Assembly (NCBI GenBank): GCA_025458025.1
Contig: JALOTF010000032.1
Span: 1-48,529 of the forward strand
Length of the DNA stretch: 48,529 bases
Source of the DNA: Beijerinckiaceae bacterium
GTDB lineage: Bacteria; Pseudomonadota; Alphaproteobacteria; Rhizobiales; Beijerinckiaceae
Direction: 5' to 3'
Made by a program: the position numbers and the translations under genes. The notes beneath the pieces are model-generated. The model was not told where the DNA came from and searched no databases. It worked only from the letters and a program-made list of their open reading frames with translations. This document shows, one piece after another, positions 1 through 41,026 of this stretch; the stretch's first letter is position 1, and each line of letters opens with the position of its first letter.

Positions 1-1591
1 GGCGAGTTGGGTGGCCTTTGCGGGCTGGTCGCGGAAAATCTCGGGCTTGGCGAGCGCCTCATCGGCGCGGGCCAGAAGGGTCGTGAGCTTCTCGACCTGC
101 TGCTCCAGCACTTTCGCTTTCTCGCGCAAGGGTTTCTGATTTTGTCGCTTTTCGGCGGCCGCGCGGCGGTCTTCCTTTTGCGAAGAGGCCACATCCTCGC
201 GCTTGCCGGAATCGCGGCGCGCTTCGAGCACGAGGCGCGCATAGGCGTCGAGATCGTCATCGAAGGGCTTCACGCGCCCCTCGGCCACCACCCAGAGCCG
301 GTCGCAGGCGGCATCGAGCAGCGAGCGATCATGGCTCACGATGATCACCGCGCCCTTGTAGTCCGCCAGCGCCTCGACGAGCGCATCGCGCATGGGGATA
401 TCGAGATGGTTCGTGGGCTCGTCGAGGATGAGGAGATGCGGTCCGTCGAAAGCCGCGAGGCCGAGCAAGAGACGCGCCTTCTCGCCGCCGGAAAGCTGAC
501 GGATCGGGGTATCGGCCTTGTCCGCCGGGAACCCCAGCCGTGCGGTGGCTGAACGGACGACCGCTTCGCCAGCCTGCGGCATCTTCCGGCGCACGAGAAG
601 AACAGGAGTTGCGTCAGAATCGAGTTCATCGAGTTGATGCTGCGCGAAATAGGCGATGTTCATGCCCCGCGCGCGGATGACCTCGCCGGATTTCGCGTCG
701 AGCCGCCCGGCAATCAGCTTCACCAGCGTCGATTTGCCATTGCCGTTCTGGCCGAGAAGGCCGATGCGATCATCGTCGGCGATGCGCAAGGTGAGGCCGG
801 ACAGCACCGTGCGCTCGCCATAGCCGACAGACGCGCCTGAAGGTTGCCACCGGCCCCAGCTTTTCCAGCCGCTTCACGCGGGATTGCGCCTGCTTCGCCT
901 TCGAGGCCTTGGCCTTGAAGCGATCAATGAAGGCCTGGAGATGCGCGCGCTCCGCCGCCAGCTTGTCTGCTGCTTTCTCGGCCAGCATGGCCTTTTCGGC
1001 ACGCTGGCGGGCGAAGCTCGAATAGCCACCGCGATAGAGCGTGAGCTTGCCGCGATCCATATGCAGCGTGTGATCAGTCACCTCGTCGAGAAAATCGCGA
1101 TCATGCGAAATCACGACCAGCGTGTGCGGATAGCACTTGAGATGCTCCGTGAGCCAGAACGCGCCTTCGATATCGAGATAGTTCGTGGGCTCGTCGAGCA
1201 GCAGCAGATCGGGTTCGCGGAACAGCACCGCCGCCGCACCGATATCCGCGAGGCGAAGCTGGATATCCGCAATACGATGCGCATCAGTCGCCGTTTCCGC
1301 TTCCTTCAGCAGGGCGAGGCGCTCGGTATCCGCCGCGAGAACCGTATCGAGCAGCGTCTCCGGCCCGCCCGGCGCTTCCTGCGCGACATGGCTGAGGATC
1401 GCCTGGCGCGGCATGGCGATCGTTCCACTTTCGAGCGCGATCTCGCCGAGGATCAGCTTGAACAGGGTGGATTTCCCGCAGCCATTGCGGCCGATCAGCC
1501 CCGTGCGCGCTGCCGTTGGAAGCTGCGCGGTGGCATTGTCCAGCAGAAGCCGGTTGCCGAGGCGATAGGTGAGGCCGGTAAGCGAAAGCAT
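1..1591 (-). pseudogene. ABC-F family ATPase gene, damaged by two deletions; runs off the left edge
   Basis: ABC-F proteins are soluble twin-ATPase proteins, many of which act on the ribosome. Reading leftward from ATG at 1591, the first ATPase domain has Walker A GRNGCGKST (about residues 34-42) and Walker B with DEPTNYLD (about 133-140). The sequence runs from RLADI directly into GAAAVLFREPD near position 1240, so the usual 30-45 residues carrying the SGGW-type signature are missing in frame. Past the linker (RVKRLEKLGPVATF), the frame changes at about 835-841 and the original frame stops at 770. The second domain resumes in another frame with ASVGYGE, GQNGNGKST, LSGGEKARL and DEPTNHLD, then a charged coiled-coil linker, and stays open to base 1. 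The 20-30 residues normally before ASVGYGE are also absent. I infer a pseudogene or an assembly fault. The rest of the gene lies outside the window. Confidence 0.85.
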
Positions 1592-1647
1592 GGCCCGCGC
1601 TATAGCGAGAGGCACCGCCGCCTGTCACGCGCGGAATGGATGCACAC

Positions 1648-5680: not shown

Positions 5681-6400
5681 TCAGGCGGCCTTTTGCGCCT
5701 CATCCGCCGGGAAATAGAGCGCGAGCATCCGGTCATGATAGGCCCGTAGCGCGGGCTTGGTCTGGACATACGCACAAATGCGGGAGTCGAAATAAGGCGT
5801 CAGCATGCAGGCGATGGTGCCGAAAACGCTGGCATCGGCCCCGCAAGGCTGCTCGCCGCCAATGAAGGGGTGATGCGCCAGACGCTCCACGATGGCATCG
5901 ATGCAGCGCGCGGCAATCGCGAAGCGCTCATCGGGTGAGTAGCGCCCATTGCCCTGGCCAGCGAGGTTGCGGCGAACCCTCCGTCGGATCATCGCGATGA
6001 TGAGCGGGCGGATCAGGGCAGGGGCCTTTTCGAAGAATTTCCGCGGACCCTTGTCGAAATTGGCATCGACCATCCAGCGATCATGCACGACCGGCCAATA
6101 GAGGTGATCCTCGCACATCTTCTCGAAGGCCCAGCCAATCGCGGCACCCTCGGGGCTCACGCCCGCGTCGAAATTCACGCCATAGGCCTCTTCCAGATAG
6201 AAGCGGATCAGCGTGGAATCCGGCACGATCCGGCCCTTGTCCTCGATGATCGGAAACTTGCCCTTGGGCGCCTTGCGGAAATCAGCGGGAACGGTTTCGT
6301 AGCTGGCCTTCGCCATGCGCAACAGCACATGCGCCTTGATGACGAATGGGCTGGGATCGACCGTCCCGAAAGCCGGCCCGAATGTGTGAAGCTTGATCAT
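5681..6400 (-). CDS. glutathione S-transferase family protein (FAX / metaxin-like)
   Basis: A 239-residue protein with an N-terminal thioredoxin-like domain (IKLHTFGPAFGTVDPSPFVIKA, then GKFPIIEDKG and VPDSTLIRFYLE at about 50-70). The C-terminal helical GST domain includes PFIGGEQPCGADASVFG, close to the failed-axon-connections/metaxin type in which a conserved aspartate caps a helix. These proteins bind glutathione or similar thiols; the reaction is unknown. The stop codon abuts the stop of the convergent oxidoreductase gene. Upstream it diverges from a YafY-type regulator across a 109-bp gap containing a perfect palindrome, so it is a likely target of that regulator. Confidence 0.85.
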   Translation of the reverse strand: MIKLHTFGPAFGTVDPSPFVIKAHVLLRMAKASYETVPADFRKAPKGKFPIIEDKGRIVPDSTLIRFYLEEAYGVNFDAGVSPEGAAIGWAFEKMCEDHLYWPVVHDRWMVDANFDKGPRKFFEKAPALIRPLIIAMIRRRVRRNLAGQGNGRYSPDERFAIAARCIDAIVERLAHHPFIGGEQPCGADASVFGTIACMLTPYFDSRICAYVQTKPALRAYHDRMLALYFPADEAQKAA

Positions 6401-6442
6401 GACATTCCCCTGACAATGTGGAGGCCCCGTGCTACTGCCAGC

Positions 6443-6465
6443 CTCCTGACATCTGCTGTCAGGAG
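6443..6465. promoter_or_regulatory. putative operator, perfect 9-bp inverted repeat
   Basis: CTCCTGACA and TGTCAGGAG are exact reverse complements around a 5-nt spacer, in the gap between the divergent GST and YafY-type genes. A second CCTGACA half-site lies at about 6409-6415 near the GST start. The position suggests autoregulation and control of the GST gene by the adjacent regulator. The palindrome is directly visible; the binding protein is inferred. Confidence 0.6.
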
Positions 6466-6509
6466 CATGCGCTAATCCAGTTCGAGATCAGTTTGACCGG
6501 GGGAGCAAG

Positions 6510-8932: not shown

Positions 8933-9087
8933 TGGTGTCCGAGGCTCCGATGGAAAAAGGGAATTTGGCGTCTCAGCCCCGGGAAAACATCAGCTTTCAA
9001 TAAAAAGCAACCCAATTGCTGCGCCGCTTCCTTAACGGCTGGGGATGTAAGGACGAGGCTCACGGTATTGGCAGGAGAAGCCTTGCT

Positions 9088-10509
9088 ATGGGATACTTGG
9101 CCCGAAACGCCAGTAAGATTGCGGCTTCGGCGCGGCATTTCACGCGGGATCGGCGCGGAAGTGTCGCAACGATCTTCGCTCTCTCGCTGCTGCCAACCCT
9201 GAGCCTCCTGAGCGTCGCCGTCGATTTTTCCGCTGCGAGCAACAAACGTTCAACCCTGACAGCCGCCGCCGATTCCGCTGCCCTCGCGGGCGTGTCGGAA
9301 AGCGTGGTGAAGCAGACACTCACCTGGAACGAGCAGAAGGAAGAAAGCCTCAAGGCCATCAAGCTCCAGTTCGAGGCGCTGACATCCGATCTCAAGACGG
9401 AAGGCGTTCTCCAGAACGCCTCCTATGACGTGAAGATCAACAACAACGTCATCCAGACCAAGGTGTGTTTCGACGCGCAGGTGAAGACCTCGGTGATGGC
9501 GGTCGCGGGCAAGAGCTACATCGAGGTATCGGGCTGCGCCGAGGCGAGTTCGGCGCCGCCGGTCTATGTCAGCGTCTACGCCTTCGTCGATGCCTCCGGC
9601 TCGATGGGCATCGGAGCGAGCACAGATGACCAGCGCCTGATGAACCGCAAGCTGGGCTGCGCTTTTGCCTGCCACACGCTGGACTGGAAAACTCCGATGT
9701 TCAACCCGGATTGCGAGAACCGGGGCAACTGGGATGATGGGAGCAAGACCACGACCTGCGCCCGCAAGATCGGCGCGAAAACCCGTTTCGATGTGGTGCG
9801 CGGCGCGCTCGCTGACGTGATCGACGATGCCGGCGCCATGGCGAAGATGCCGAACCAGTTCCGCTTCGCGATCTACAAGTTCAGCAACACGCTGACAGAG
9901 GTGCAGTCGGAAACCACCAATCTCGGTGTTGCTAAGGCTGCCGTGCAATCCATGGAAATGGATATTGCCGGCGCCGGCTCGAATTTCCGCGAAGGCATGA
10001 AGGCGCTTCTGCCGAAAATCCCGACCAGCGGCGACGGCAAGACTCCCTCGACGCCCAAGGTCATCCTGCTCATCATGACGGATGGCGTGGAAGGCAACGT
10101 GAAGGAATATCGCGAATGCCGGAATGCCTGGTTGAATGGCGTCTGGACCCGGAACATCTGCAATTACTGGGGCAGCTGGAACCCGGATAATGCCTTCACG
10201 GTCAACGAGCCCGGCTTCTACTGGGGCTCGGAGCGTTCGCAGGCCATCGACTCGAAGATCTGCGACAATTTCAAGAGCAAGGGCGTAACGGTTTCAACGC
10301 TGAACACGGAATACGTCACGCCGCCGGGTTCGAACGATACCCGCTTCCAGCAGATCCAGAGCATGCTGCGCCCGGTGATCCGCCAGACCATGGCGAAATG
10401 CGCGAGCCGCGAGGAATACGCCTATTACGCCACAACTCCGGGCGAAATTCAGCGGGCGACCGACATGATGTTCCGCTCGGTGCTGGAGAAGGCGCGCATC
10501 ACCCGCTGA
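9088..10509 (+). CDS. TadG-like pilus-assembly protein with VWA domain
   Basis: A 473-residue protein. A TadE/TadG-type N-terminal segment (DRRGSVATIFALSLLPTLSL, about residues 21-48) is one membrane helix followed by the helix KRSTLTAAADSAALAG. A von Willebrand A domain follows from about residue 160, with the MIDAS motif D168-A-S-G-S172 in FVDASGSMG and ILLIMTDGVEGN. The rest probably faces the periplasm. ATG at 9088 was chosen because AGGAG at 9073-9077 precedes it by 10 nt; the frame is open upstream to 9016. TadG proteins usually accompany tad/flp pilus operons, but none is nearby, so this is an orphan copy. It diverges from purM. Confidence 0.85.
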   Translation: MGYLARNASKIAASARHFTRDRRGSVATIFALSLLPTLSLLSVAVDFSAASNKRSTLTAAADSAALAGVSESVVKQTLTWNEQKEESLKAIKLQFEALTSDLKTEGVLQNASYDVKINNNVIQTKVCFDAQVKTSVMAVAGKSYIEVSGCAEASSAPPVYVSVYAFVDASGSMGIGASTDDQRLMNRKLGCAFACHTLDWKTPMFNPDCENRGNWDDGSKTTTCARKIGAKTRFDVVRGALADVIDDAGAMAKMPNQFRFAIYKFSNTLTEVQSETTNLGVAKAAVQSMEMDIAGAGSNFREGMKALLPKIPTSGDGKTPSTPKVILLIMTDGVEGNVKEYRECRNAWLNGVWTRNICNYWGSWNPDNAFTVNEPGFYWGSERSQAIDSKICDNFKSKGVTVSTLNTEYVTPPGSNDTRFQQIQSMLRPVIRQTMAKCASREEYAYYATTPGEIQRATDMMFRSVLEKARITR

Positions 10510-10514
10510 TGGCC

Positions 10515-10532
10515 GGAGGCACTTTCGCCTCC
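10515..10532 (+). terminator. possible hairpin terminator after the TadG-like gene
   Basis: GGAGGC and GCCTCC pair around a 6-nt loop just after the TadG-like stop codon and are followed by TGCTTCCTT rather than a clean T-run. It is a weak intrinsic terminator at best. Confidence 0.35.
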
Positions 10533-10574
10533 TGCTTCCTTGATCCAGCCATGGCCGATAGTTAGCTTTCGGCC

Positions 10575-12210: not shown

Positions 12211-12902
12211 GCACCGAAAGCCAGCTTCCGCTGCCCTTCGAGAGCGCGCCATCCTATGGCCGCGACGATTTTCTCGTCGGCAAGCCCAATGCGAGCGCCT
12301 TCGCCTATATCGAGCGGCATCCGCGCTGGCTCGCCCCTGCCGCCCTGCTGACCGGCCCGGAAGGCAGCGGCAAGAGCCATCTCGCCGCGATTTTCGCGCA
12401 AAAGGCCGGAGCCGCGACCATGCGCGCGGATCATCTCGCTTTCGAGGCCGTGCCGATGCTCGCTCAATCCGGTGCACTGGTGCTGGAGGATGCTGATCGC
12501 TTTCCGTCCGATGAGCGCGCCTTGTTCCACCTGCTGAACCTCGCGCGGGAAACCGGCTTGTTTCTCGTGATCACCGCCCGCGCCGCACCGGAAAACTGGG
12601 GCATCTCGACGCCCGATCTCCTCTCGCGCCTCCGCGCCCAGCCGCGCCTCGCGATGGAGGAGCCCGATGAGGGCCTGCTCGGCGCGCTGTTCGTGAAGCT
12701 CTTCGCCGACCGGCAGATTACCGTCGAGGCCGCAGTGGTCTCCTACGCGATGACGCGCATCGAGCGGAGCTACCGCGCCGTGCTGGCGCTGGTCGCGGCA
12801 CTCGACCGGCTCTCGCTCTCCCGCAAAAGGCCGATCACCCGCGCGCTCGTGGCCGAGTGCCTGGGGGATGCGCCGGAAGACGACGACGCGGAAGGCGCCT
12901 GA
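12207..12902 (+). CDS. hdaA: HdaA-type DnaA regulatory ATPase
   Basis: A 231-residue DnaA-related AAA+ protein that lacks the DnaA DNA-binding domain. The N-terminal QLPLPF (residues 6-11) is a beta-clamp binding motif, followed by Walker A GPEGSGKS (about 50-57), a Walker B-like LVLEDADRF and a sensor-like ITARAAPENW. Hda homologues load on the sliding clamp and stimulate ATP hydrolysis by DnaA after initiation. The start is GTG at 12207, within the stop region of the upstream permease gene. It lies upstream of ppk, an order often seen in Hyphomicrobiales. The acidic C terminus (EDDDAEGA) is unremarkable. Confidence 0.9.
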   Translation: MSTESQLPLPFESAPSYGRDDFLVGKPNASAFAYIERHPRWLAPAALLTGPEGSGKSHLAAIFAQKAGAATMRADHLAFEAVPMLAQSGALVLEDADRFPSDERALFHLLNLARETGLFLVITARAAPENWGISTPDLLSRLRAQPRLAMEEPDEGLLGALFVKLFADRQITVEAAVVSYAMTRIERSYRAVLALVAALDRLSLSRKRPITRALVAECLGDAPEDDDAEGA

Positions 12903-12989
12903 AACTTTTTTGCTTTCCCTGTCGCGTGGCTGACATAATCTTCTGGTGGTCAGACTATTCTTCCTGCTTCTGCTTTTCCCGCTGGCTCC

Positions 12990-15155
12990 ATGATTTCCAA
13001 CGATACCTGCCCACTGAGCCCCGATGAACTGGCGCAGCATCCCAGCCGCTTCATCAATCGCGAGCTGTCCTGGCTGCAATTCAACCGGCGCGTGCTGGAA
13101 GAGGCTGGCAATGCCGGCCACCCGCTGCTGGAACAGTTGCGCTTCCTCTCGATCTCGGCCAACAACCTCGACGAGTTCTTCATGGTGCGCGTGTCCGGCC
13201 TCATCGAGCAGATGATCGCCGGCGTGCAGACCACCTCGGACGACGGCCTCACGCCCGAGCAGGCGCTTCTCGCGATCAATGGCGAGGTGGAAGCGCTGAC
13301 CGCCGACCAGCAGGATCGCTGGCGCAAGCTGCGGCAGGCCATCGAGGCGGCGGGCATCACGGTCGTGGCACCGCTCGATCTTCTGGACGAGGATCGCGAG
13401 ACCCTGCGCGAGACGTTCCTTTCCGCGATCTTCCCGACACTGACACCTCTGGCGATCGACCCCGCGCATCCGTTTCCCTTCATTCCCAATCTGGGTTTCA
13501 GCCTCGCGCTCTCGCTGCACAAGCAGAATGACGGCAAGATGCTGAAGGCGCTGATCCGCCTGCCGCAGAAGCTGGAACGCTTCATCCGCCTGCCGGATCG
13601 CGACGGGCGTTTGCGATTCATCCTGCTGGAGCACGCGATCACACTTTTCGCGCCGAAGCTCTTCCCGGGCTACGCGCTGAAGGGGATCGGCGCCTTCCGC
13701 GTGATCCGCGACAGCGATATCGAAATCGAGGAGGAGGCGGAGGATCTCGTCCGCACCTTCGAGACCATGCTGAAGCGGCGCAAGCGCGGCGTGGTCATCC
13801 GCCTCGAAATCGAGGCAGCCATGCCGGAGGATCTCCGCGCGTTCGTCGCACAGGAATTGCGCGTGAAGGCCCGCGAGGTGTTCATCATCGACGGCATGCT
13901 CGCGCTGAACGATCTCTCCCAGCTTGTGTCGGTCGAGCGCCCGGACCTGAAATTCCAGCCGCATACGCCGCGCTTTCCGGAGCGCGTGCGCGAGCATGGC
14001 GGCGATTGCTTCGCGGCCATCCGCCAGAAGGATCTCGTCGTCCACCACCCCTATGAGAGCTTCGACGTGGTGGTGAACTTCCTCGAACAGGCTGCCCGCG
14101 ACCCCAACGTCATCGCCATCAAGCAGACGCTTTACCGCACATCCGCCAACAGCCCGATCGTGCGTGCCTTGTCGGAAGCGGCAGAAGCGGGGAAAAGCGT
14201 CACGGCGCTCGTGGAACTCAAGGCCCGCTTCGACGAGGAAGCGAATATCCGCTGGGCGCGCGACCTCGAACGCGCGGGCGTGCAGGTCGTCTATGGCTTC
14301 ATTGAGCTGAAGACCCACGCGAAGCTGAGCCTCGTCGTGCGGCGCGAAACAGCCGGGCTCGTGACCTATTGCCATGTCGGCACCGGCAATTACCACCCGA
14401 TCACCGCGAAGATCTACACGGACCTCTCCTATTTCACCGCCGATCCCGTGATCGGACGGGATGTGGCACGCATCTTCAATTTCATCACCGGCTATGCAGA
14501 GCCCGCAGAGCTAGAGCAGATGGCGGTCTCGCCGGTCACGCTCAAGCGCAAGTTGCTGGATCACATCGCGGCGGAAATCGCCCATGTGAAGGCCGGGCGC
14601 CCCGGCGCGATCTGGGGCAAATGCAACAGCCTCGTCGATCCGGTGATCATCGACGCGCTTTATGAGGCGAGCCGCGCCGGCGTGCAGATCGACTTCATCG
14701 TGCGCGGAATTTGCTGCCTGCGACCGGGAATTCCAGGCTTTTCCGACAATATCCGCGTGAAATCCATCATTGGGCGCTTTCTGGAACATGCGCGCATCTA
14801 TGCTTTCGGCAACGGCTATGGCCTGCCGCACGCCAAGGCGACCGTCTACATTTCCTCGGCCGATCTCATGCCCCGTAACCTCGACCGGCGGGTGGAGGCC
14901 CTGTGCCCCATCGTCAACCCCACAGTGCATGAGCAGGTTCTCGGCCAGATCATGCAGGCTAACCTTCTCGACAACGAACAGAGCTGGCGGGTCTTGCCTG
15001 ATGGCTCGTCCTCGCGCATGAGTGCCGCGCAAGGCGAGGAGCCCTTCAACGCTCATCGCTACTTCATGACGAATCCGAGCTTGTCTGGTCGTGGCGCCTC
15101 TCTCAAACTTTCGAGCCCTCGCACCCTTGCCAAACGGCGCGCCAACGCCGGCTAG
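12990..15155 (+). CDS. ppk: polyphosphate kinase 1
   Basis: Ppk1 reversibly polymerises the ATP gamma phosphate into polyphosphate. The 721-residue protein has the expected order: N domain ([19 protein letters not shown], about 21-39), head domain, and two phospholipase-D-like catalytic domains. The autophosphorylated histidine is His443 in [11 protein letters not shown], followed by [21 protein letters not shown]. The C domain has [22 protein letters not shown] and [29 protein letters not shown] at 12990 gives a normal length. The 3' end overlaps the predicted start of ppx by up to 65 nt, so synthesis and hydrolysis of polyphosphate are likely co-expressed. Confidence 0.96.
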
Positions 15156-16653
15156 CCCGCCCGTGGGGTCGCTGACGACCGGCCCCGTCGCCGTCATCGA
15201 TATCGGCTCGAACTCGGTGCGCCTTGTCGCGTATGATCTGCATTCGCGCGCGCCCGTGCCGATGTTCAACGAGAAATCACTCTGCGGCCTCGGGCGCGAG
15301 GTCGCGGTCACCGGCTTCCTGCCGAAAGATGGCCTGGAACAGGCGATTGCCGCTTTGAAGCGGTTCCGCGTGCTCTGCGATCTGATGCGGGTCGAAAAGC
15401 TCTATGTGCTGGCCACCGCCGCCGCCCGCCGGGCGCTGAACGGCCCGGCCTTCATCGCGGAAGTGCGGACGATCCTCGGGGCGGAGGTGACGGTGCTCAG
15501 CGGCGCCGAGGAAGCGCGGCTGGCAGCCCTCGGTGTGCTCGCAGGTCTCGACCGGCCCGACGGCCTCGCAGGCGATCTCGGCGGTGGCAGCCTCGAACTC
15601 ATCGATGTAAAAGATGGCCGGGCAGGCGAGGGCGTGAGCCTCGAACTCGGTGGCCTTGCCCTTCGGGATGCCGCCGGCAAGAGCCTGAAGAAGGCCGGCA
15701 AGATCGTGCAGGATGCGCTGACCGCCGTGCCGATCATCCGGCAGGCCCATGGGCGGGATATCATCGCTATCGGGGGCACCTGGCGCGCGATTGCCCGCCT
15801 GCACATGGCCAAGACGAATTATCCGCTCAACGTGCTGCACGGCTATGTGGCCGATGCAAAGCCGATGATCGAGTTCTGCCAGGACCTCCAGAAGGTCGAT
15901 CTCGACACGATGCCGGCAATCTCCGAGATCTCGAAAGAGCGCCGCCCACTCATCGCTTATGGCGCGCTGGTGCTGGAACAGCTTCTGCGCATGAGCGGTG
16001 CCGCGCGGTTGCAGGTGTCCACTTCCGGCGTGCGCGAGGGCATGCTCCACTCTCTGCTGCCGCCGGATTTGCAGGCGGAAGATCCGCTGCTCGTCGGCGC
16101 ACGGGCGCTGTCCGATCTCCATGCCCGCGACCCCGCCCATGCCGATGATCTCATCGCCTGGACCGATGATTTCGCCCGCACCGCATTCCCCGATGAAACG
16201 CATGGCACCCGGCGTATCCGCCAGGCCGCCTGCCTGATTTCGGAAGTCGCCTGGCGCGCAAACCCGGATTACCGGGCCGAGGAAGCCAGCCGCATGATCG
16301 CCTATGCCGCGCTTGGCGCCATTTCGCATCGCGAGCGGGCCTTCCTCGCGAGCGTCCAGCATGCGCGCTACGAGGGGCTGACCGAAAACGTGACACCGCC
16401 CTTGCGGTCGCTGCTGTCCTTGCGCGAGATCGACCTCGCACGGGCCATCGGCTGCCTCATTCGCGTGGCCTACAACATCTCGGCCGGCCAGCGGGGTATC
16501 CTGCCGATGACGCCGATCAAGGTGGAGAACGGGCGGATCGTGCAGCACCTTCCGGAGGCTTTCGCGAACCTCAATAACGAGCGACTGACCGGCCGCCTGA
16601 AACAGACCGCGAAAATGCTGAATCTCGGTTTCGAGGTCAGAATCTCAACCTGA
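15091..16653 (+). CDS. ppx: exopolyphosphatase, Ppx/GppA family
   Basis: Ppx removes terminal phosphates from polyphosphate, and related enzymes hydrolyse pppGpp. The ASKHA fold is shown by [17 protein letters not shown] (phosphate 1 loop) and [13 protein letters not shown] (phosphate 2 loop). The C-terminal helical, HD-like region extends the product to about 520 residues, typical for alphaproteobacteria. The start is uncertain. GTG at 15091 keeps a short Pro/Ala-rich N terminus inside the ppk 3' end, while GTG at 15163, just after the ppk stop, would start 15-20 residues before the conserved core. I kept the longer form. It pairs functionally with ppk. Confidence 0.92.
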
Positions 16654-19654: not shown

Positions 19655-20903
19655 GAATTCGGCCCATATCGGAAAAAAACTGCCCTGTCGCCTCTCTTTT
19701 CGGCGATATCCCGGTTGCGTCACGCGCACAGCACCGGCATTGAAGCCTTGACATGGACGGGGCTCGTCGCTTCTGTCCGCCCCGGTTTTCTTGGAGGCCG
19801 GAATCCGCCCCGGATTCGGGCCTTTCCATCGTATCAACGAGCCTTTCCGATGCATCGCTACCGTTCACACACCTGCGGCGGGCTTCGCGCCTCCGATATC
19901 GGCACTCTCGCCCGGCTTTCCGGCTGGTGCCATCGCATCCGCGACCATGGCGGCGTGCTCTTCATCGATTTGCGCGACCATTACGGCATGACCCAGATCG
20001 TGGTGGATCCGGATAGTCCGGCCTTCAAGGATGCCGAAAAGGTACGTTCTGAATGGGTGATCCGCGTCGATGGCAAGGTGCGCGCGCGCCCGGCCGGTAC
20101 GGAGAACGCCAACCTGGCGACCGGTCAGGTCGAGATGTTCGTGACCGAACTCGAAGTGCTGGGTGCGGCCGCTGAACTACCAGTGCCGGTCTTCGGCGAT
20201 GTCGAATATCCCGAGGACCAGCGCCTGAAATACCGCTTCCTCGATCTGCGCCGCGAGAAGCTTCACAACAACATTATGACCCGCGTGAAGGTTATCGATT
20301 CCATGCGTCGCCGCATGAAGGATGCGGGCTTCAACGAATTCTCGACGCCGATCCTCACGGCCTCGTCGCCGGAAGGCGCGCGCGATTTCCTCGTGCCGAG
20401 CCGCATCCATCCCGGCACGTTCTACGCGCTGCCGCAGGCCCCGCAGCAGTATAAGCAGTTGCTGATGATGGCGGGCTTCGACCGCTACTTCCAGATCGCG
20501 CCGTGCTTCCGCGATGAGGACCCGCGCGCCGATCGCCTGCCGGGTGAATTCTACCAGCTCGACGTGGAAATGAGCTTCGTCGAGCAGGAGGATGTGTTCT
20601 CCACCATGGAGCCGGTGATCCGCGGTGTGTTCGAGGAATTCGCAGGCGGCCGCCCGGTCACGCCATCGCCCTGGCCGCGCATTCCCTATGCCGAGTCGAT
20701 GGCGAAATACGGCTCGGACAAGCCTGATCTGCGCAACCCGATCGTCATGCAGGATGTCTCCGAGCATTTCCGCGGCTCGGGCTTCAAGATCTTCGCGCGC
20801 ATGCTCGAAGACCCCAAGAACCGCGTTTGGGCCATCCCGGCGAAGACCGGTGGCTCCCGCGCGTTCTGCGACCGCATGAACTCCTGGGCGCAGGGCGAGG
20901 GCC

Positions 20904-20941
20904 AGCCGGGGCTGGGGTATGTAGCCGGGGCTGGGGTATGT
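20904..20941. repeat. exact 19-bp tandem duplication in aspS
   Basis: The unit AGCCGGGGCTGGGGTATGT occurs twice back to back (20904-20922 and 20923-20941). Nineteen is not a multiple of three, so the duplication explains the aspS frameshift. Collapsing it to one unit joins GQPGLGYV in the first frame to MWREEQ in the second. Confidence 0.95.
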
Positions 20942-20972
20942 GATGTGGAGAGAGGAGCAGGCTGCGGAGGCT

Positions 20973-21065
20973 GGCAGCGTTGCTCAAGCTGTCGAGAAAG
21001 CTAGCGTTTCGGTGGGCCTTGCGTCGACTGATGATGTTGCGTCTCGCTATCCGCGCGTAACAGCC
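20973..21065 (+). other. apparent 93-nt in-frame insertion within aspS
   Basis: In AspRS the glycine-rich GLGY(I/V)xWRE segment normally leads within a few residues to [15 protein letters not shown]. Here 31 extra codons separate them. Only 15 of these 31 codons end in G or C, against 23 of the next 31, and several are GTT, GCT, GAT or TCT, which are uncommon in this window. I found no strong internal palindrome and no second copy in the window. The exact edges are uncertain by a few codons. Confidence 0.65.
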
Positions 21066-21533
21066 GCCGGACCAATCGCCAACAACATCGGCCCGGAGCG
21101 CACGGAAGCGATCCGCCAGCAGCTTGATCTCAGTGCTGGCGATGCGGCCTTCTTCGTGGCGGGTGATCCGGAAAAGTTCGTGAAGTTCGCCGGAGCCGCC
21201 CGCAACAAGGTGGGCGAGGACCTCAGTCTCACGGATAAGAACCGCTTCGAGTTCGCGTGGATCACCGATTTCCCGTTCTTCGAATGGAACGAGGAGGAGA
21301 AGAAGATCGACTTCTCCCACAACCCGTTCTCCATGCCGCAGGGCGGGCTTGAGGCGCTGCAGACGCAGGACCCGCTGACCATCAAGGCCTTCCAGTATGA
21401 TATCGCCTGCAACGGCTTCGAACTGGCCTCCGGCGGCATCCGCAACCACAAGCCCGAGGCGATGGTGAAGGCCTTCGAACTCGCAGGATACGGCGAGGAG
21501 ACCGTGGTCGAGCGCTTCGGCGGCATGTATCGC

Positions 21534-21568
<35 letters not shown>

Positions 21569-21750
21569 GGCCGCGGGCGTGGACCGCATCATCATGCTGC
21601 TCTGTGACGCGCAGAACCTGCGCGAAGTCGCGCTCTTCCCGATGAACCAGTCGGCGCTTGATCTCCTGATGGGAGCACCTGCTGCGCCCAGCGCCAAGCA
21701 GCTGCGCGAATTGCACCTGCGGCTGAACCTGCCGGAGAAGTAAGTTCGGC

Positions 21751-31620: not shown

Positions 31621-32352
31621 CTATTCGTGCCGGAGCACGAAGCGATCCACGAAATCCGCAAAGCTCTTCGCCTTGAAGCCGGCCATCAGGGCATCGGCGT
31701 CGTAATCCTCGCGCACCCAATCCAAGAAGGGCTTGGCTTCATCGGGATGCGCCGCGAGATAGGCCTCGAACACAGCATCGAGAATGCCCGCTCGCGAGGA
31801 GCGGATATGCAGATGCCGCAGCGAGAGTTCATCCTTCGCTGCGCGCACAGTCGCGCCTTGCGTCACGATCCGGTCGAAGGCGGCGATGAACCCCGCGCGA
31901 TCCGCTCCCGATTTGCAGTGCACGAGCATGGGCCGGGGCATGGTTTTCAGGCGTTCCGCAATCGCCAGCAGATGCTCGCGCGGCGGCGCCATGCGGGAGA
32001 AAACCGGGATATCCACCAACGTGTCATAGGTCAGGCCCAACGCCTCGGCCTTTTCGCGCGCCAGCGCATGGCCGCCATGGTTGGGCGCATCATGCCGGAC
32101 ATTGAGAATCGAGCGGATGCCTTTCCGCGCAGCCCAGGCGATATCCCACGGCATGGGCTGGTTGGAGCGCCAGCCGGTCGGGCCATATTGCTTGCGGTTC
32201 TTCCAGACGAGGCGCACCACGCCGAAATCCCGCACCAGCAAGTCGAACCACGCCGAAAAGCGTGCGCGGAAACCGGCAATCGGCCCCTCGAAGCGGCGAA
32301 GCTTCGGGGGCAGGGCATATTTGCCGGTCTCGGGCGCTCGGGTCTCTGGCAT
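31621..32352 (-). CDS. tyrosine / dual-specificity phosphatase-like protein
   Basis: A 243-residue soluble protein with the phosphatase P-loop HCKSGADRAGF (CX5R, about residues 145-155) and an upstream general-acid region (DIPVFSRMAPPREHL). The sequence GIRSILNVRHDAPNHGGHALAREKAEALGLTY matches the beta-alpha start of this fold in bacterial DSP-type proteins. The long N-terminal basic region (ALPPKLRRFEGPIAGFRARF) is extra. In glycan clusters such phosphatases sometimes regulate tyrosine kinases of polysaccharide export, but no kinase is visible here. It sits 10 nt after the PhnA-domain gene and 73 nt before the GT2 gene on the same strand. Confidence 0.87.
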   Translation of the reverse strand: MPETRAPETGKYALPPKLRRFEGPIAGFRARFSAWFDLLVRDFGVVRLVWKNRKQYGPTGWRSNQPMPWDIAWAARKGIRSILNVRHDAPNHGGHALAREKAEALGLTYDTLVDIPVFSRMAPPREHLLAIAERLKTMPRPMLVHCKSGADRAGFIAAFDRIVTQGATVRAAKDELSLRHLHIRSSRAGILDAVFEAYLAAHPDEAKPFLDWVREDYDADALMAGFKAKSFADFVDRFVLRHE

Positions 32353-32362
32353 GGAACCCCGG

Positions 32363-32575
32363 TCAGGCCTTTTTCAGGAATTCCGTGCGCAGCACCAGCC
32401 CCTTGATCTTTTCGACACGGCACTCGACCTCCGCCGGGTCATCCGTGAGGTGGATGCCACGCACCATGGTGCCGCGCTTGAGAGTGGTGGAGGTGCCCTT
32501 CACCTTGAGATCCTTGATGAGGGTGACGTTGTCGCCCTCTTTCAACTCCGTGCCATTGCTGTCGCGCACAACCAT
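32363..32575 (-). CDS. minimal PhnA (YjdM) C-terminal-domain protein
   Basis: A 70-residue protein consisting almost entirely of the PhnA C-terminal SH3-like domain: VRDSNGTELKEGDNVTLIKDLKVKG, then TTLKRGTMVRGIHLTDDPAEVECRV and LVLRTEFLKKA. E. coli YjdM is about 110 residues and has an additional N-terminal zinc ribbon, which is absent here. Domain-only forms are common in alphaproteobacteria; despite the old name, no role in phosphonate use is established. ATG at 32575 follows a GGGGGC stretch. The 297-bp stretch upstream (32576-32872) contains no gene I can support; it should hold the promoters of this operon and of maeB. Confidence 0.85.
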   Translation of the reverse strand: MVVRDSNGTELKEGDNVTLIKDLKVKGTSTTLKRGTMVRGIHLTDDPAEVECRVEKIKGLVLRTEFLKKA

Positions 32576-39160: not shown

Positions 39161-40948
39161 ATGAACCTCTTCCAGTCCTTCGCCGCCGATGTGCAGGCGA
39201 CCTTGCGCGCGCTGCCGCTGACCGCGAACCTCCCCGCCGAGGCTCTGGCCCGCGTGACCGTGGAGCCGCCGCGCGATGCGACCCATGGCGACCTTTCCAC
39301 TAACGCGGCCATGGTGCTGGCGAAGGAAGCGAAGACGAACCCGCGCGCGCTGGCCACGGAGATTGTGGCGGCGCTTGAGAAAACCGGTCGCTACGTGAAG
39401 CTGGATATCGCCGGCCCCGGCTTCATCAACGCGACTTTGCCGCCCTCGGCCTATCATAATGTGTTGCGCGCAGTGCTGAAGGCCGGCGCGGATTTCGGTC
39501 GCTCGACCATGGGGCAGGGCCGGAAGATCAACGTGGAATATGTCTCCGCCAACCCCACGGGCCCCATGCATATCGGCCATGGACGCGGCGCGGTTTATGG
39601 CGATGCATTGGCGACCCTGCTCTCGGTCGCGGGTTATGAGGTCACGCGGGAATACTACATCAACGATGCCGGCGCGCAGGTCGATGTGCTCGCCCGCTCG
39701 GCCTTCCATCGCTATCGCGAGGCGCTCGGCCGCGATGTCGGCCCGGTGGGCGAGGGGCTCTATCCCGGCGATTACCTCGCGCCGGTTGGCAAGAAGCTCG
39801 CGGAAGAGTTTGGCGAGACTCTCGAAAACCTGCCCGAAAGCGAGTGGCTGCCGAAGGTCCGGCAAATCGCCATCGATTCCATGATGACGATGATCCGCGA
39901 GGATCTGGCCGCGCTGAACGTGAAGCACGATGTGTTTTTCTCGGAGGCCTCGCTGCAGGGCAAGAACTCGGCCGAGGGTGATCGCGTCGGCGCGACCATT
40001 CAGGATTTCATCGCGCGCGGGCTTATCTATCAGGGCCGCTTGCCGCCGCCGAAGGGCCAGAAGGACGAGGATTGGGAGGATCGCGAGCAGGCGCTCTTCC
40101 GCGCGACCGATTTCGGCGACGATGTGGATCGTCCACTGCTGAAATCCGATGGCAGCTACACCTATTTCGCGTCGGATATCGCCTATCACGCCAACAAGTT
40201 CAGCCGTGGCTTCGCCGAGATGATCGATGTCTGGGGCGCGGATCACGGCGGCTACGTGAAGCGCATGCAGGCGGCGACTCGCGCGGCCACCGGCGGCAAG
40301 GGCAGCCTTGAGGTGCGCCTCTGCCAGCTCGTGAAGCTGATGCGCAACGGCGAACCGTTCAAGATGTCGAAGCGCGCCGGCGATTTCATCACGCTGCGCG
40401 ACGTGATCGACGAACTCGACGAGCAGGGCGGCGCGGGGCGGGGGCGCGATTGCCTGCGCTTCATGATGCTCGACCGCAAGAACGACCAGGAACTGGAATT
40501 CGACCTCGCTAAAGTGCTGGAGCAATCGAAGGATAACCCGGTTTTCTACGTGCAATACGCCCATGCGCGCACGGCCAGCGTATTCCGGCAGGCGGAAACG
40601 CTTGTCACACCGGCGGTGAGCGAGGCCGAACTCGCTTCGGCGGATCTCACAATTCTCGCGGATGAATCGCAGGTCGGGCTCATCCGGCTGCTTGCGCAAT
40701 TCCCGCGTCTCGTGGAGCAGGCGGCGCTCAGCCGCGAGCCGCATCGCATCGTTTTCTACCTCTACGATCTCGCAAGTGCCTTTCACGGCTTGTGGAATAA
40801 GGGCAAGGAATTGCCCGATTTGAGGTTTATTAATAACGATGACCGAAAAGGAACATTAGCGAAGCTGGCTCTCGTGAAGGCCACGAGAACGGTGCTTGCG
40901 AATGGCCTCGCCATTCTCGGCGTCTCTGCGCCGGATGAAATGCGCTAG
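39161..40948 (+). CDS. argS: arginyl-tRNA synthetase
   Basis: A class I synthetase that charges tRNA-Arg. The product has an N-terminal Add-1 domain ([22 protein letters not shown]), the HIGH motif in [18 protein letters not shown], the catalytic core [15 protein letters not shown] and [13 protein letters not shown], a KMSKR motif ([13 protein letters not shown]), and the anticodon-binding C terminus ([19 protein letters not shown]). ATG at 39161 ([12 protein letters not shown]) is chosen because family members begin at this point; ATG at 39137 lies in frame but its purine stretch GAGG is too close. The length is about 595 residues. Unlike aspS in this window, the gene is intact. Confidence 0.95.
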
Positions 40949-41026
40949 GGCATTGCGGGCATCGCGTGTCCATTCGGCGAGCAGTCGCCCGTCGCGGCGA
41001 CGTTGCAGGAAGGGAAGGTCGCGTTC

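Follow-up and report, generated by a model that had tools for sequence, protein, structure and literature searches.

The aspS gene of the window, which is the whole stretch of 48,529 nucleotides from a Beijerinckiaceae draft genome analysed here, spans positions 19850-21743, and its reading frame is shifted by a 19-bp duplication. The duplication is present in the sequence and is beyond chance; its probable origin is an error of assembly or else a rare variant, and the frameshift that it produces is most likely not a real feature. The odd segment downstream of the duplication is probably an inherited insert and not a part of the frameshift.

The 19-bp duplication and the aspS reading frames

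The unit, AGCCGGGGCTGGGGTATGT, is found at 20904-20941 in two exact back-to-back copies. Together with the frames that it separates and the insert that follows, it is arranged as listed:

19850..21004, forward strand: upstream aspS frame, with the OB fold and the first part of the class II catalytic domain, as far as the variable loop
20904..20922, forward strand: first copy of the 19-bp unit, which aligns with relatives and encodes ..QPGLGYV
20923..20941, forward strand: second, extra copy of the unit, which causes the frame change
20925..21743, forward strand: downstream aspS frame, with the C-terminal part of the enzyme and the possible restart codons GTG 20940 and ATG 20943
20942..21068, forward strand: long loop insert, in frame with the downstream part, not alignable as DNA to the relatives compared, and weakly similar as protein to the insert of G011

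An earlier note on this DNA had described a 19-bp unit occurring twice in direct succession and had ascribed to it the shift between the two aspS frames. Its coordinates, with exact copies at 20904-20922 and 20923-20941, and its frame logic are both borne out, the length of the unit being 1 modulo 3. Among the repeats reported for the window by Tandem Repeats Finder, the duplication ranks top (score 76 vs. 50 for the next). The genome sample scanned for exact tandem duplications comprised 312,991 non-N bases, that is, the window and 16 unmasked stretches of up to 20 kb (20 were fetched); in these ~313 kb, the 19-bp duplication is the only case with a unit of at least 10 bp, all others of at least 8 bp having units of 8 or 9 bp, and the longest duplicated unit obtained in five triplet shuffles was 11 bp. 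The second unit is absent from those loops of relatives that were inspected.

The enzyme is an ordinary bacterial-type AspRS (TIGR00459). Its gene starts at about ATG 19850, rather than at GTG 18599 of the ORF listing, and the upstream frame passes through the duplication and, now out of frame, stops at TAG 21002-21004. Where the two units meet, TAG 20922-20924 is created, directly before the opening of the downstream frame at 20925; the two open frames overlap by 77 nt (20925-21001). The restart codons GTG 20940 and ATG 20943 are available as the earlier note had said, and its figure of 65 nt is exact when counted from GTG 20940 through the upstream stop codon. In place of a single open frame from the OB fold to the C-terminal catalytic part there are thus two, changing at the duplication and intact apart from the shift. 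The profile search identifies both pieces as bacterial AspRS: the upstream piece reaches 381.5 bits (profile positions 3-333) and by itself exceeds the curated cut-off of 373.85 bits; the downstream piece, with 182.5 bits (positions 362-582 of 586), by itself falls below it. The two frames are 88.8 and 79.7% identical in protein to the aspS of G009, a gene that bears an insert of its own.

The draft genome (G000) consists of 153 contigs and is 97.24% complete, with 1.44% contamination. TIGR00459 gives four matches in it: two are the window pieces, and the other two belong to a single gene on contig C103, which is EpmA/GenX (350 bits to TIGR00462, EF-P gene adjacent); a search with PF00152 returns the same two genes. 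A second aspS, an AsnRS, or another PF00152 enzyme was therefore rejected, EpmA/GenX being the sole find beyond the window pieces. The claim that aspS is single copy stands, since neither profile found a second AspRS in the G000 assembly, and the option of an intact second aspS elsewhere received no support from this search of a 97.24% complete genome. As PF00152 also finds no AsnRS in the assembly, the AspRS of the window probably serves both tRNA-Asp and tRNA-Asn.

Among the 16 other genomes of the genus, aspS lies in one open frame in 13 and is open to the contig end in G010; none was found in G003 and G007. G007 is listed as 100% complete, and in both genomes aspS is perhaps broken or was lost in assembly. 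The search covered 17 genomes of the genus, and no genome among them has two aspS genes. The other aspS genes read are open to their stop or to the contig end, including L115 and L135, with loops of 11 and 25 residues, and among the genes read and the matches listed the two-frame aspS is confined to the window assembly. The window shares with G009 the gene order exonuclease/HRDC gene, aspS, ABC transporter, and it is collinear with G009:C7, most segments having 82-91% DNA identity. Elsewhere along this alignment, the window has 133 nt extra at 32352-32485, where a 355-residue open frame of G009 aligns with ~44 extra window residues, and the segments 5693-6509 and 9051-10536 are without a match in the collinear G009 region.

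The variable loop of AspRS and the insert of the window

The duplication sits at the upstream edge of an AspRS loop that varies in length and sequence. Aligned as DNA with its three nearest relatives, to which its segments are 84.8-91.4% identical, the window matches as far as 20920-20922 and again from 21069-21102, and within the genus the segment between GLGY and GP(I/V) ranges from 9 to 53 residues. In 133 rows of full-length aspS from members of the family and named relatives (Bosea sp. AAP35 counted twice; contig-truncated genes and the partial L111, L115, and L135 omitted), the loop has 9-14 residues in 112, a similar 25-residue form in nine, and 33-82 residues in 12 rows from 11 genomes. 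Counting the window (~43 residues) and G010 (35 residues), loops of 33-82 residues occur in 13 genomes, and no other position of AspRS has as many inserted residues. The long loops are real, since their carriers include Bosea sp. AAP35, the record of which is not marked as a MAG, and G006, assembled in four contigs. In the 12 long-loop rows, the mean GC of the loop is 0.54 vs. 0.64 in the remaining gene, and the 112 short loops have 0.67. Exceptions among the long loops are the loop of G023/G063 (0.636) and the window insert (0.605 vs. 0.632 in its flanks), although GC at the third codon position is lower in the window insert (0.55 vs. 0.81-0.84).

The GAD domain sits inserted in the catalytic domain of bacterial AspRS. 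With an E limit of 0.01, neither of the window pieces matches it, and the Bosea homologue scores 21.1 bits against PF02938, under the 23.4 cut-off, at residues 382-440. From the architecture of AspRS and this sub-threshold match, the loop presumably lies in the GAD region. With the same homologue, the solved relatives 4wj3, 6hhv, 1efw, and 1c0a were found by sequence, and its AlphaFold model, a poor one (mean pLDDT 60.5, pTM 0.45), places the insert between strands 353-361 and 400-403.

Several further observations concern aspS inserts in the family. The longest loop observed, that of L072 (G074), has 82 residues in frame with a GC of 0.49; it has no Pfam match, and its PHROGs matches are at noise level. 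A second insertion site lies downstream, near residue 421 of the Bosea protein, with 36-37 extra residues in three rows, and is common to L069 (G115), L070 (G106), and L071 (G129). In L012 (G006) and L018 (G009), conserved residues flanking the loop are also strongly altered, e.g., GLAHIFF...GPIPKRIGREKVRQLREQFKLNAGDAIFF, and in G006 the GC is low across ~200 bases around the loop. The literature searched, by title and the opening of the abstract, contains no mention of the AspRS loop or of this frameshift.

The earlier note was right about the coordinates, the frame logic, and the single copy; the variable, insert-bearing loop adjoining the duplication had escaped it. In a phylogeny built from the aspS segment that precedes the loop, the window groups with G006, G009, G010, and G011 (SH-aLRT 99), and long loops are found in all five members of this clade. 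Loop state changed at least six times among 22 rows and eight times among 131 rows. When 13 loops were compared all against all, the G023/G063 pair stood out with E 1e-23; the window and G011 share 35% over 43 residues (E 3e-5, in a tiny set), and E lies between 0.012 and 0.07 for the pairs that rank next. Shuffling was applied to 21 pairs. The similarity between the window and G011 inserts was reached by none of 1000 shuffles when the three hairpin residues were kept and by four of 1000 when they were not, and that of a few other pairs by 12 to 34 per 1000. The similarity to G011 is therefore weak; with the other members of its group, the window insert has no detectable similarity. Because long loops are common to all five clade members, and the other aspS genes read are open, the window insert is probably inherited and fast-evolving, with only the second 19-bp unit specific to the window assembly.

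Two sources of the inserts were considered and rejected. A single shared family does not agree with the comparison of the 13 loops, which are mostly unrelated, and nothing points to a mobile repeat family: the window and G009 inserts match only themselves in their own genomes (other matches at E > 0.2). Pfam gives no match for seven inserts, and PHROGs gives only noise (best E 0.16).

Possible origins of the second unit

The explanation we favour, with moderate confidence, is that the cells very probably have a single 19-bp unit and an unbroken aspS, the organism's sole known AspRS gene, and that the second unit is an artefact of assembly or of a mixed-strain join. The variable loop may not be alike in all strains or close relatives that were sampled together, and assembly could have joined sequence at the upstream edge of the loop so that a second unit arose, two pieces with a common 19-bp end being laid end to end instead of overlapped. 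That the error lies in the assembly, and that the faulty join took this form, are both inferred, each at that same middling confidence. Several results argue for it: with no other AspRS-type enzyme found, a fixed knock-out is hard to believe; both aspS frames are intact apart from the shift; and 13 congeners keep aspS in one open frame. In three of eight contig-truncated aspS genes of relatives that were fetched (G018, G041, and G095), the contig stops at residues 347-376, beside the loop, which also favours this explanation and fits strain variation in the loop breaking assembly graphs; the excess, slight and post hoc in a small sample, has a binomial probability of 0.006 if the target is set at 5% of the gene and of 0.021 if it is set at 8%.

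The last argument for an artefact comes from a second gene on the same contig, an ABC-F ATPase gene with deletions that relatives lack, which the earlier note had left unseen:

1..1594, reverse strand: damaged ABC-F ATPase gene at the contig edge, best NCBIfam match PRK10636, with deletions at about 1228-1235 and 832-837

The gene is in three pieces, 96, 96, and 91% identical to G009. Relative to that genome, it has one in-frame deletion of 114 nt and one frame-breaking deletion of 74 nt, so that residues 123-158 and 293-314 of the G009 protein are missing and the second loss breaks the frame. The first loss removes the SGGW stretch of the first ATPase domain, which we take to be the ABC signature. 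The deletions are absent from 14 of the 16 other genomes of the genus, which have a full-length match in one frame; in G007, the gene ends at the contig end, at residue 605, and is otherwise whole, and in G003 no orthologue was found. As the gene is well preserved apart from two new deletions, local misassembly seems likelier than decay, although the deletions could represent real decay of a dispensable gene.

In all, 73 open frames (72 kb, from the window and three further contigs) were compared, and seven were flagged for a frame change. Two of these are clear breaks, aspS and the ABC-F gene, and three were judged by eye to be shadow, leader, or pre-start sequence: the flags in L096 and L099 (~15590-16026) fall in shadow or leader sequence, and that at window 40846-41016 precedes the start codon. 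L099 ~12739-13208, which has an 8-nt difference with frames open in both genomes, is also among the four flags of the reverse-direction comparison, and L093 3672-4737 was flagged as well. Contig C9 begins where the G009 order continues from the window, and the two, the one neighbouring pair of contig ends compared, share no end overlap from which an assembler word size might be read. Internal N runs that would betray scaffolding were not found in the stretches taken.

Nothing in the sequence itself proves an artefact, and slipped-strand duplication is also an ordinary mutation. Of the options offered by the earlier note, an artefact and a slippage allele remain likely, and an intact second aspS is not supported. 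The main rival, though rather unlikely, is a real and recent slipped-strand duplication, lethal or nearly so, that affects some of the population or the clone that was sequenced; recombination between the neighbouring copies would remove one unit and so reverse it. The copies are exact and unmutated in frames otherwise intact, the site adjoins a loop fast-changing in length, and the unit contains two GGGG runs, all of which would suit slippage; however, the assembly would contain such an allele only if most of the sequences had it, and this is difficult when it inactivates the only AspRS found. It is improbable that a functional aspS lies in an unassembled part of the genome and that the window copy is a decaying duplicate. 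The 97.24% completeness and the 153 contigs leave room for it, but the window copy stands in the gene order common with G009, without further decay, and none of the 17 genomes of the genus has two aspS genes.

A real split AspRS, in which two polypeptides made from overlapping frames and divided in the loop would assemble into an active enzyme, is very improbable. It could draw on GTG 20940 and ATG 20943, on the intact downstream frame, and on the position of the break in an insertion-tolerant loop that elsewhere has up to 82 residues, which the poor model of the Bosea homologue would put between two strands. Against this, only GGGG precedes the starts, by eye a weak ribosome-binding site, and the strong-looking GGAGAGAGGAG falls, again by eye, after the restart codons; no other aspS read is split, and another broken gene lies on the same contig. 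A split aminoacyl-tRNA synthetase should have its two open frames conserved in at least two species, which was not seen among the aspS genes read and the matches listed, and this option of the earlier note gained no positive support beyond the tolerance of the loop for long inserts. Slightly more doubtful still is the full form of this proposal, in which both units would be real and fixed and AspRS would consist of two polypeptides split in a loop already insert-tolerant in the lineage. That recoding within the 77-nt overlap would yield full-length AspRS, whether by +1 ribosomal frameshifting or by bypassing 19 nt from one copy of the unit to the other, is barely credible: the frames overlap and the identical copies would supply matching take-off and landing codons, but no stop codon or recognised shift-prone motif is visible by eye at the point of change, and there is no conservation among the relatives read.

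A real and fixed duplication would be notable, since an essential enzyme, probably serving two tRNAs, would then function as two pieces or through recoding. Taken as the artefact that we favour, the case is mainly a warning: assemblies may break at the variable loops of housekeeping genes, and the result may look like a lethal frameshift. The AspRS loop gained long, mostly AT-rich inserts several times within one alphaproteobacterial family, in an enzyme otherwise highly conserved around it, which prompts one to ask whether the loop has a role at all, and of what kind.

Comparison with known systems

The two frames of the window jointly match the bacterial AspRS family (TIGR00459/NF001750) end to end except for the loop. 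The window gene differs from that family in being broken by the 19-bp duplication and in its loop of ~43 residues, compared with 9-14 in 112 of the 133 rows. Rickettsia palindromic elements are in-frame inserts in protein genes. The AspRS inserts resemble them as in-frame extra segments in an alphaproteobacterial housekeeping gene; however, the two inserts tested have no further genomic copy, and the 13 loops are mostly unrelated. As a probable rather than a proven case, the window resembles assembly artefacts at contig joins or strain-variable sites in three ways: an essential gene in a draft of 153 contigs has a short, exact tandem duplication; odd deletions affect another gene of the same contig; and in three other drafts, contigs end beside the same aspS site.
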